Assembly (NCBI GenBank): GCA_016868785.1
Contig: VGFS01000002.1
Coordinates: forward strand, 28,050 to 92,049
Direction: 5' to 3'
Length of the DNA stretch: 64,000 nt
Origin: Bacteroidota bacterium
GTDB taxonomy: Bacteria > Bacteroidota > Bacteroidia > NS11-12g > UBA955
Under the pieces are notes generated by a model that saw nothing but the letters and a program-made list of their open reading frames with translations, was not told the origin of the DNA and did not search any database. This document shows positions 2,700 through 36,265 of this stretch, piece by piece (within the stretch, counting starts at the first letter, position 1; the number at the start of each line of letters is the position of its first letter). Position numbers and translations under genes: made by a program.

Positions 2700-5600
2700 A
2701 TGAAACTTAAAGAATTACTCAAGCCTTTGGCGGCGGCGGCGGTCTTGACATCTTCTGTAGCGGCAGTAAATGCGCAGACAGCGGGGTCATCCACTGACAC
2801 TGGCAGGGTAGAAGAGGTGGTGGTAACTGCCTTGGGTATCAAAAAACAACAGCGCGCATTGGGTTACGCAGTTCAATCTGTTAAAGGAAAAGAACTTGTG
2901 GGATCGGGTGAGCAAAACGTTGTTCAAGCGTTGAGTTCAAAAGTAGCAGGTGCTTTGGTGACTAGTTCATCAGGAACGCCTGGTGCTAGTTCAAGAATCT
3001 TGTTGCGTGGTGCTGCTACGTTTACGGGTAACAACCAGCCGCTTTTTGTGGTGGATGGTGTGCCGATCGACAACAGCACGGACCAATCAACGGCTGGGGA
3101 TTATCCCTTTAACTCGAACCTTCAGGGGGTAAACAACTCAAACCGTGCGGTGGACATCAACCCTGATGACATTGAAAACATCACGGTATTGAAAGGTCCT
3201 GCGGCTGCGTCTTTGTATGGTGTTCGTGGTGCCAACGGTGCCATCATCATCACTACCAAGCGTGGACAAAAGGGCGGTAAGCGTTTCAGCGCTGAATTCT
3301 CTAGCACCATGGATTGGTCTAAGGTGAACAAGTTGCCAGAAAGGCAGTTTGTTTATGGCCAAGGACTTGGTGGGGGTGGACAGAGAATCGACTCTGCGGG
3401 TGTAAGAAAGAACTTCACCGGTACCATTCCTGCAGGATGGACTTTGGTAGACGCGGGTACCTCTGCAACTACGCCCAACTCTTGGGGACCTAAAATTGCC
3501 GACGGTAAGTCTTTCGACAACGCGGGTAATTTCTTCAAGACGGCGATGTCGATGACCAACAACTTGGGTGTAACTGTAAACGGTGACAATACCAGTGCGC
3601 GTTTCTCTGTGGGTAACACGCAGCAAGACGGTATCGTTCCAAATACTTCATTCAAACGTACAACCATTCGTGTGAACACCGATAGTCGTGTTACCGATAA
3701 GTTGAGCGTTGGTAGCAGTGTAAACTTGATTAACTCAGGGGGTACACGTGCTCAAAACGGTTCTAACTTGTCTGGTGTGATGTTGGGTTTGATGCGTGCT
3801 CCTGCTGATTTCAATTTGGCGGGTGGTGCCGGTGCAGATGGATACACTAACTCTGACGGTACACAATATCAGTATTTCCCCATTTACGATAACCCCTATT
3901 GGACAGTATATCGCAACCCATTTACGGATGATGTAAACCGCATCATTGGTAACTTGAATGCGCAGTACAAAGCGAATGATTGGTTGTCGATCAACTACCG
4001 TGTAGGTACTGACCAATACACCGATAGCCGTCAGCAAATTTTTGCTGTAGGTTCTTGGCAGCCTGATAACTCACCCGGTGGTGAAATTTCACAGAACGTG
4101 TTGCGTTACAAAGAAATTTACAGCGACTTGGTATTGAACGCCAACCGCAAGGTAAACGAAGATTTGAGCGTGAACATGACTTTGGGTAACAACTTGAACA
4201 CCCGTACTTCTAGCGATCAGTATTTGCGCGGTCGCGATTTGGCGGTTCCCAATTTCTACAACTTGAGCAATGCTTCAAATTTGTATGCTTCTCAAGGGTC
4301 TGGAACTATCAAAAACGCTGCGATTTTCGGAAGTGCTGAATTCTCATTCAAGAACTTCTTGTATTTGAATGCCAGCGGTCGTAACGAGTGGGCTTCTACC
4401 TTCGGTAACAAGAAAAGTAGCTTCTTCTACCCTTCTTTAAGTGGTTCGGTTGTTTTCTCTGAATTGATGGAAAAGGGTGGATTGATTTCATTTGGTAAAA
4501 TGCGTGTGGCTTATGCGCAAGCGGGTATTAACCCTCCAGCGTATGCTACTCGTACTTACTATGGTCAGCCTTTGTTCACCGATGGTTTCACTGGAGGATT
4601 GGGCTTCCCATATTTGGGTCAGAACGGTTTCGGACAGAGCAATGGCTTGGGTAACCAAGGTTTGATGCCTGAGCGCAGAACCAGCAAAGAGATTGGATTT
4701 GATGTACGTATGTTCGACAGTCGTTTGACGATTGATTTGACCTTGTATGAGCAGAAGTCTACTGATTTGTTGGTGAGCATGCCATTGGCCGCATCTTCAG
4801 GATACAGTAGTGTTCGTCAGAACTCTGGTACTATGACCAACAAGGGTATTGAGTTGATGTTGGGTGTAACTGCCATCAAGAACAAGAACTTGACTTGGGA
4901 AATTGCTGGAAACTTCGGTTTGAACAGAAACGAGGTATTGTCATTGGCTCCTGGTGTTGATGAGATCAACATCGAGGCTGCTTTCTCTAGCATTGGATCT
5001 TACGCGATTGTTGGTCAGTCTTACGGTTCGATGTATGGTTCACGCGTATTACGTCATTCAGACGGTTCAATGATCATCGGTGCCAACGGTTTGCCTGTGT
5101 TGAACAACACCCGTGGCAACATTGGTAACCCTTATCCAGATTGGATTGGAGCATTGCGCAACACGTTGAACGTAAAAGGTCTGAACATCACTGCATTGAT
5201 CGACGTGCGCAAGGGCGGAGACATCTGGTGTGGTACTTACGCTCGTTTGTCACAGTACGGCATCACTGCACCTGCTGCCGATCGTTCAGAAACATACACT
5301 ATTGAGGGTAAGCGTATCACTTCTGGTACACCTAAGTACGATTCAAAAACTGGTTTGATCACCAACGAAGGTGAATTGACTTTTGCAGAAAACACCAGGC
5401 AAATCAGCGCATTCAACTACTACCGCTCTTATTTGGGTGATGGTCCAGGAAGTTCTGCTGAAATGGCGGTTTACGATGGATCATGGGTACGTTTGCGCGA
5501 ATTGGGCGTAAGCTACAGAATCAACATGAAGGGCAACAAAAACTTGAGTTACATTGACTTGGGTGTTGTAGGTCGCAACTTGTGGTTGAGCACCAAATAT

Positions 5601-34412: not shown

Positions 34413-35423
34413 ATGGCATTAGTGACCTATACCGAGTTGGGCTTTTACTGTGCGCAGGCCGATTTATATATCGATCCGTTGCGTCGGGTGGCCAAGGCGT
34501 TGGTGACCCATGCCCACAGCGATCATGCCCGTCCGGGTATGCAGCACTATCTCTGTCATTCCGATTCGGTGGGTATTCTCAAACTCCGCCTCGGACAGCG
34601 TATTTCGTTGCAATCGATGGGGTATGGCGAGTCGATTTGGATGAATGGGGTGGAGGTTACGTTGTTTCCGGCGGGACATGTGCCAGGGAGTGCCCAAGTG
34701 CGGTTGTCGTACCGCGGTGAGGTCTGGGTGATCACCGGTGATTACAAAACGGTGGGGGATGGACTTTCGCCTGCTTGGGTGTCGGTGCGATGCCACCATT
34801 TGGTCACAGAGAGCACGTTTGCACTGCCCATTTTCCAATGGCGGGATCAGCAGTTGGTGTTTGATGAAATCAATGCTTGGTGGCGGGGGAATGCGGCGGC
34901 GGGACGGCCATCGGTATTGTTGGGGTATTCTTTGGGGAAGGCGCAGCGGATATTGAAGTATTTGGACCGCTCGGTGGGTGAGGTTGTTTGCCACGGCGCC
35001 ATCAGCGCTTCGAACCGGGTATTGGAGTCGGCCGGATTCGATTTCGGTCCTTGGGTTGACGCTACTGAGGGTTTGTCGGGTTTACGGGCTGGCGGAAGGG
35101 TATTGGACGGTAGTTTGGTTGTTTGTCCGCCGAACGCCTTGCGTTCGGCTTGGATCACGCCCTTGGGAAACTATGCGTTGGCCAATTGCAGCGGGTGGAT
35201 GGCGGTGAGTAAGTCGGGCGATTGGGGCGGGGTTGACAAGGGGTTTGTGTTGAGCGATCATGCCGACTGGCCGCAATTGTTGGAGGCGGTGCGGGCTTCG
35301 GGCGCTGAGCATGTGCATGTGACGCATGGGTTCAGTGAGACTTTGTCGCGCTACCTCCGCGAAACGATGGGCTTGGACGCCGATGTGGTGGAGCAGGCGA
35401 TGTGGGAAAGGACGGAAGAATGA
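34413..35423 (+). CDS. Ligase-associated DNA-damage-response exonuclease (MBL-fold)
   Basis: LGFYCAQADLYIDPLRRVAKALVTHAHSDHARPGM; PAGHVPGSAQVRLSYRGEVWVITGDYK; TESTFALPIFQW; GYSLGKAQRIL; FVLSDHADWPQLL. Confidence 0.93.
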   Translation: MALVTYTELGFYCAQADLYIDPLRRVAKALVTHAHSDHARPGMQHYLCHSDSVGILKLRLGQRISLQSMGYGESIWMNGVEVTLFPAGHVPGSAQVRLSYRGEVWVITGDYKTVGDGLSPAWVSVRCHHLVTESTFALPIFQWRDQQLVFDEINAWWRGNAAAGRPSVLLGYSLGKAQRILKYLDRSVGEVVCHGAISASNRVLESAGFDFGPWVDATEGLSGLRAGGRVLDGSLVVCPPNALRSAWITPLGNYALANCSGWMAVSKSGDWGGVDKGFVLSDHADWPQLLEAVRASGAEHVHVTHGFSETLSRYLRETMGLDADVVEQAMWERTEE

Positions 35424-36265
35424 TGCGCACGAAGTTCAATTTTATCGGACTTGAGGCACCCCAAAAGGTATCGATGGGCAAGTTAAAACTGTGGCTTTCG
35501 GAGTCGCTGGGGATGCCGATGTGGCTGATTGCGGAGAGTCAGCGTTTTGCGGGTTCGTTGAACGAGGCGTTGGCTTTGGTGTTGGGCGCCCCGGAGGGGG
35601 AGGTGTCGCGCTTGTATATCGAACAGGGTTTTGCACAGTGGGGTGGGTGGACGGACGGAGAGCAGCGAGCATGGGTTTTTCGGGTTTTGGTGTCGATGGA
35701 GGTGGAGGACCGACGAAGGTTTATGGCATTGCTGAACGGTCGGTTGGTTACGGGGTCGGCTTTGGCGGGCATGGCGGGCAGGGACGGAGCGGCATCGTCG
35801 GGAACCGAAACGGAAATGGCGGAGAACATCGCATCGGTATCTGTGAAGGTGAGGGCGGTGTTGTTGTATGTGCGTCCTATGGGACGATCGGTGTTGCAGT
35901 ACGAGCTCACTTTCGGACTTCGAACGGGGGAGGAAAGTGAGGTAACCTATGTGGGGTGTTTCAAGGCGGTGGTGGGCACGGACGAAGCGGGTGTGGCCAT
36001 TCACGGGCTGACCGATGAGTTATCGCTGTTGGAATGGATTGGATCGAATTTGGGCGAGCGGATCGGTCCGATACGGGGGGTAAGGGTGTCGGAAGTTTTC
36101 GAATTGCATTGCGATGGGGTGCAATGGAGCAAGCGTCACAAGGCCGGATTCAAGGCCGAGCGGGTGCGGGTGGTGTCGTGGTTGCGCGATACCGCGGGGG
36201 TATCGGGGTTGTGGGAGGTTAGAGACTGTCTCCCCAGGCCGAAGGATTTTGGGCAAAGCGGTTGA
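35420..36265 (+). CDS. LigB-type ATP-dependent DNA-ligase derivative lacking the adenylation domain
   Basis: N-terminus resembles the ligase N-terminal domain (KLWLSESLGMPMWLIAESQRFAGSLNEALALVL); C-terminus resembles the OB domain (VRAVLLYVRP...ELTFGL...GLTDELSLLEWIGSNLGERIGPIRGVRVSEVFELHCDGVQWSKRHKAGF). No KxDG motif. Start overlaps the upstream stop (ATGATG). Confidence 0.72.
   Translation: MMRTKFNFIGLEAPQKVSMGKLKLWLSESLGMPMWLIAESQRFAGSLNEALALVLGAPEGEVSRLYIEQGFAQWGGWTDGEQRAWVFRVLVSMEVEDRRRFMALLNGRLVTGSALAGMAGRDGAASSGTETEMAENIASVSVKVRAVLLYVRPMGRSVLQYELTFGLRTGEESEVTYVGCFKAVVGTDEAGVAIHGLTDELSLLEWIGSNLGERIGPIRGVRVSEVFELHCDGVQWSKRHKAGFKAERVRVVSWLRDTAGVSGLWEVRDCLPRPKDFGQSG

Follow-up and report, generated by a model that had tools for sequence, protein, structure and literature searches.

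A LigB-type DNA ligase without its nucleotidyltransferase core, encoded beside the ligase-associated exonuclease, is probably a non-catalytic partner of that nuclease

The window, a stretch of 64,000 nucleotides from a genus of uncultivated Bacteroidota, encodes a protein derived from LigB-type ATP-dependent DNA ligases that has lost the nucleotidyltransferase core and whose gene overlaps that of the ligase-associated exonuclease (Table 1). We consider it likely that this protein is a degenerate ligase turned non-catalytic DNA-binding partner of the exonuclease, because the 2 genes are present and lost jointly and share a conserved overlap, the coreless proteins are monophyletic, their dN/dS values are low, the retained domains have ligase folds and motif VI has been lost while the adjacent block has been kept. 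The absence of the helicase and phosphoesterase from the genus, the presence of LigA and the existence of exonuclease-LigB fusions elsewhere also count in favor of this explanation.

Table 1. Coordinates of the exonuclease/coreless ligase locus and its features in the window.
Feature	Position	Strand	Basis
MBL/beta-CASP ligase-associated exonuclease, 336 aa, apparently intact	34413..35423	+	TIGR04122 402.7 bits, VTHAHSDHARPG motif, genus-wide conservation
ATGA stop/start overlap of the exonuclease and coreless genes, 4 bp	35420..35423	+	Seen in all complete members of the genus
Coreless LigB-derived protein, 281 aa + stop	35420..36265	+	TIGR04120/NF006701 outer-part matches; orthologues in 10 further members of the genus, 9 of these complete
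Shortened ligase DNA-binding domain, residues ~18-107, all helical	35471..35740	+	Alignment with full-length ligases, AlphaFold2/Foldseek
Disordered linker at the missing nucleotidyltransferase core, residues 112-136	35753..35827	+	pLDDT <50; alignment gap versus full-length ligases
Ligase OB domain, residues ~139-256	35834..36187	+	TIGR04120 402-508 match, strand pattern, fold matches
SKRHKAG block with S, R, K and G invariant, residues 237-243	36128..36148	+	Invariant in 20/20 coreless and full-length sequences
Eroded motif VI site, residues 247-258; RFPRxxRWRxDK in active relatives	36158..36193	+	Sequence comparison

The exonuclease exceeds the cut-off of its family model TIGR04122 (402.7 versus 325 bits) and carries the metal-binding HxHxDH motif as VTHAHSDH; judging from family and motif, it is presumably an active nuclease. 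The preliminary description of this locus, which was based on the letters alone, had placed a coreless ligase beside this exonuclease, and the domain models, the alignment gap, the TIGR04122 match and the 4-bp overlap all bear this out. Overlapping of the 2 genes is a feature of all 10 complete genus members (4 bp in nine, 8 bp in G003), and the pair is flanked by an S46 peptidase gene and pyrE. The open reading frame at 35420-36265 had been correctly recognized but described as 287 aa long, a length reached only from an upstream GTG at 35402; from the ATG at 35420, it encodes 281 aa. The frame also shares 47 bp (window positions 36219-36265) with the 3' end of pyrE, which runs convergently. 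An LPKPQDSGQ-like C-terminal tail, conserved in the window subclade, was initially considered as a motif but was dropped, as it sits over the pyrE 3' end on the opposite strand; because of this overlap, it is probably pyrE, rather than the ligase-derived protein, that constrains the tail.

In the coreless protein, a ligase DNA-binding domain is joined by a disordered linker to a ligase OB domain, and there is no nucleotidyltransferase core. Clear similarity was found to 2 models only, both of LigB-type ligases, namely, NF006701 (E = 1.2e-17) and TIGR04120 (E = 6.6e-15), with matches that are far under the respective cut-offs and confined to the regions outside the core. At 55.1 bits versus a curated cut-off of 400, the window protein falls outside the TIGR04120 family; its coreless relatives score 29-114 bits. 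The NCBIfam match of the window protein covers mainly the OB part (TIGR04120 positions 402-508 corresponding to residues 143-255), and Pfam models gave weak, sub-cut-off matches that do not amount to recognition. The core and the KxDG lysine had been reported as absent from an otherwise intact frame; consistently, the gene has no match to PF01068, the model of the lysine-bearing core, and the core is missing from the alignment. The N-terminal LigB-type DNA-binding domain described previously is present but incomplete: approximately 45 N-terminal residues (about three helices) are also gone in the window subclade, whereas the G014 subclade retains them. In G005, G007, G011, and G014, positions ~1-145 and ~397-526 of the ligase model match within one 296-codon frame, and since both ends of the model are thus accommodated in a single frame, the core, with approximately 250 residues missing, has been excised neatly.

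Motif VI is required for adenylation chemistry. It reads RFPRxxRWRxDK in all 11 full-length sequences compared but in none of the 9 coreless ones, whereas the SxRxK(S/A)G block next to it is found in every one of the 20. The segment GVQWSKRHKAGF, previously regarded as motif-VI-like, is this conserved block just upstream, motif VI itself having been lost. Loss of the motif with retention of the block is the pattern expected if catalysis were abandoned while another function of the OB domain was maintained. AlphaFold2 models built with 20 aligned sequences reached mean pLDDT values of 81 (window protein) and 86 (its G014 relative), with pTM values of 0.50 and 0.55, respectively, which do not fix the placement of the domains relative to each other. 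In Foldseek comparisons with the PDB, ATP-dependent DNA ligases were the top match for both proteins (E = 7.1e-5 and 4.9e-9, respectively), and some of the alignments span both domains and skip the core; the fold check suggested in the preliminary description thus returned a ligase-like result. The model matches at both ends, the folds and the phylogenetic tree identify the coreless protein as a LigB descendant with homologous DNA-binding and OB domains. By the tests applied here, it is not a ligase, as it has no core, no KxDG and no motif VI and scores under the family cut-offs, and nick-sealing activity is predicted to be absent. Retention of the ligase shell suggests that it serves a function different from DNA sealing.

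Searches for relatives covered 58 genomes, including that of the window. The complete coreless gene lies beside the exonuclease gene in ten species of the genus (G000, G001, G002, G003, G005, G007, G009, G011, G012, and G014), and in an eleventh, G006, it is interrupted by the contig end. All named records bearing the gene are metagenome assemblies, and several of the genomes are incomplete. What appeared to be two copies in G003 is one gene located on overlapping contigs (C90 and C214). No member of the genus has a full TIGR04120 match; full-length ligases, in open frames of 531-621 codons, are encoded in sister genera of the family (G015, G016, G017, G019, G023, G028, and G033). Among the matches listed by profile searches of the order (111 genomes), a class sample (395) and a phylum sample (398), there was no coreless gene beyond the genus. 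The matches listed outside the genus are separate domain matches, which lie almost exclusively in full-length frames; there were also a small number of short frames, some of which were examined. One continuous match across both domains was seen, among the matches listed, in this genus only. Viral contigs yielded no relative and plasmids no match, and neither protein of the pair matched anti-phage defence models. The coreless proteins form a single clade with 100% support, the groups of which track the organism tree (pyrE and the neighbouring NUDIX gene), indicating a single loss of the core, in an ancestor inside the genus, after which the shortened gene was inherited by descent.

Across the 15 genomes of the genus, the co-occurrence of the 2 genes is perfect: 11 genomes carry both, and 4 (G004, G008, G013, and G010, the latter only 73% complete) carry neither. 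The S46 peptidase gene and pyrE are both present and adjoin each other in G004, G008, and G013. Given that G004 groups with the pair-bearing G005, G007, and G011 (modest support inside this group), it most likely lost the pair. Between its S46 peptidase gene and pyrE, at L119:1376-1501, there is a scar comprising two collinear exonuclease fragments, each of which outscores all 200 shuffles, and the sequence leading up to the pyrE end, DKVATFKSLREILPKR, by eye resembles the C-terminus of the G007 coreless protein, DQVSTIESLREILPKR, and lies partly inside the pyrE overlap. The locus is gone from G004, although the flanking sequences still share 94-97% identity with those of G007, indicating that an unused locus is erased quickly here. 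These observations bear on an alternative in which the coreless protein acts as an accessory that binds DNA mainly on behalf of other repair factors (LigA or a polymerase, for example) or shields nicks and ends from ligases, its adjacency to the exonuclease being inherited but not functional. The retained DNA-binding folds are compatible with such an activity, and hand-over to LigA is plausible, given that no DNA ligase other than LigA was found in the genome; nevertheless, the shared presence and absence of the pair among the 15 genomes, the conserved overlap and the joint loss in G004 all tie the protein to the exonuclease and make this alternative unlikely.

The coreless gene is constrained, although less than the exonuclease gene, as judged from its low but comparatively higher dN/dS. 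Estimates were obtained by NG86; deep dS is near saturation and is best taken qualitatively. In the deeper within-subclade pairs tested, dN/dS of the coreless gene is 0.16-0.39 (Z 5.9-10.4 against equality), and in two of the three closest pairs, it is 0.27 and 0.43 (Z 2.7 and 2.5); for the closest pair, G007/G011, the value of 0.66 (Z 1.0) is indistinguishable from neutral. The values for the exonuclease, from a comparison leaving out three sister-genus exonuclease rows, are mostly 0.04-0.2, and the coreless gene evolves clearly faster. Pairwise identity among the coreless proteins drops to approximately 22% with frames intact in ten species, and 24 alignment columns are invariant across the ten proteins. 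One could envision that the gene is a slowly decaying ligase relic without a job, remaining open by chance or through translational coupling to the exonuclease. Its faster evolution, the further N-terminal shortening in one subclade and the near-neutral value in one close pair fit such decay, but intact frames and invariant columns at this degree of divergence, dN/dS well under 1 in deep pairs and the erasure of the G004 locus between still highly similar flanks speak against it, rendering a relic quite improbable. A recent pseudogene is rejected outright, as independent relatives share the gene and selection acts on it. The recent in-frame deletion proposed as one of 2 possibilities in the preliminary description is likewise untenable for a gene that is found in eleven species of the genus, has diverged to this extent within one clade and is under purifying selection. 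The check for a simple pseudogene recommended there gave no refutation either, the coreless gene being under purifying selection.

The window genome, a draft of 79 contigs rated 100% complete, contains no PF01068 ligase core and no TIGR04120 match elsewhere; the sole DNA ligase identified there is an NAD-dependent LigA (785 bits). The possibility that a full-length ligase is hidden, raised at the outset, therefore gained no ground, there being no core elsewhere in the genome. An assembly or sequencing error, or a split ligase with the core encoded at another location, might be entertained for draft assemblies such as those of the window organism and its relatives, but the identical deletion recurs in ten separate assemblies, both models fail to find a core in a genome rated complete and a full TIGR04120 match is missing from every genus member, so that we regard this explanation as extremely unlikely. 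Absence of the other 2 genes of the Lhr cluster had been pointed out for the window and in fact extends across the genus, with no match over the cut-off to TIGR04121 (Lhr-type helicase) or TIGR04123 (phosphoesterase), so that the locus is not a four-gene cluster; both genes are present in sister genera. In G016 (locus L018), a member of a sister genus, the full-length ligase gene is directly followed by that of the helicase, and there is no exonuclease match over the cut-off, so the family also contains further incomplete forms of the cluster. This full-length ligase is represented in the alignment and in the tree.

The coreless protein has homologous DNA-binding and OB domains, the TIGR04122 neighbor and the SxRxK(S/A)G block in common with the LigB-type ligase of the Lhr cluster (TIGR04120/NF006701, "cisplatin damage response ATP-dependent DNA ligase"), but differs by the lack of the core (~250 aa), the KxDG lysine and motif VI and by scores far under the cut-off; unlike in the four-gene Lhr cluster, the Lhr helicase and phosphoesterase are missing from the window genome. 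Exonuclease-LigB fusion proteins, known in Opitutus terrae and Antarctic Dry Valley metagenomes (PMC10140301), likewise join the exonuclease and the LigB DNA-binding domain as one unit, although there a complete catalytic ligase is fused, whereas the window locus consists of two overlapping genes and no core. By analogy, these fusions would fit with a direct partnership here. The biological role of the LigB/Lhr/exonuclease pathway is not known (PMC10140301). The core-only LigC/LigE-type enzymes are likewise ATP-dependent ligases of reduced architecture that include an OB domain, but the reduction is opposite, the core and OB domain being kept and the DNA-binding domain being absent (PMC10140301). 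A Hyphomicrobiales assembly (L075) encodes a full-length LigB of 528 aa (3444-5381, + strand; 411 bits to TIGR04120) with the exonuclease (2743-3801, + strand) directly upstream. In this LigB, the motif I lysine is replaced by Q (EWQWDG) and motif VI is broken, with the KSG block kept. It resembles the window locus in its exonuclease neighbor but retains the core, belongs to an unrelated lineage and is represented by a single assembly; its sequence hints at a possibly independent, catalytically dead ligase, a step in the same direction as the coreless gene.

In the likely scenario of a non-catalytic partner of the exonuclease, the ligase core was lost once within the genus, and the DNA-binding and OB domains were kept in one frame under purifying selection. 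The two domains, tethered by the flexible linker, would retain their grip on DNA that is nicked, gapped or broken, and the coreless protein would place the exonuclease on this DNA, presumably within a physical complex, with sealing being left to the NAD-dependent LigA after a putative hand-over. Several observations count against this scenario, namely, the faster evolution compared to the exonuclease, the G007/G011 dN/dS of 0.66, the shortening of the DNA-binding domain and the fact that the model does not fix domain placement. The second possibility put forward in the preliminary description, a repurposed non-catalytic subunit in a two-gene module, is therefore supported by the joint presence and loss, the gene coupling, the folds and the loss of motif VI, while the DNA binding and nuclease recruitment proposed with it are predictions. 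On the more specific proposal, in which the ligase has been converted to a dedicated non-catalytic targeting subunit of an SNM1/Artemis-like bacterial exonuclease, the pair forming a minimal two-protein end-processing machine, our judgment is evenly balanced. In the open-access literature that we searched, no earlier account was found of a ligase of which only the outer domains are left, and the protein would be a clear case of an enzyme cut down to a DNA-holding shell, a "pseudoligase". The natural deletion of the core only, in a gene kept with the exonuclease despite loss of the helicase and phosphoesterase, sets the part that the ligase plays in binding apart from its part in sealing, a distinction that becomes directly testable with two small proteins. 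If the proposal is true, LigB in the ordinary four-gene cluster has a structural or targeting role that can be uncoupled from sealing, and this would also account for the full-length LigB of the Hyphomicrobiales assembly, which lacks the lysine and is encoded next to the exonuclease.
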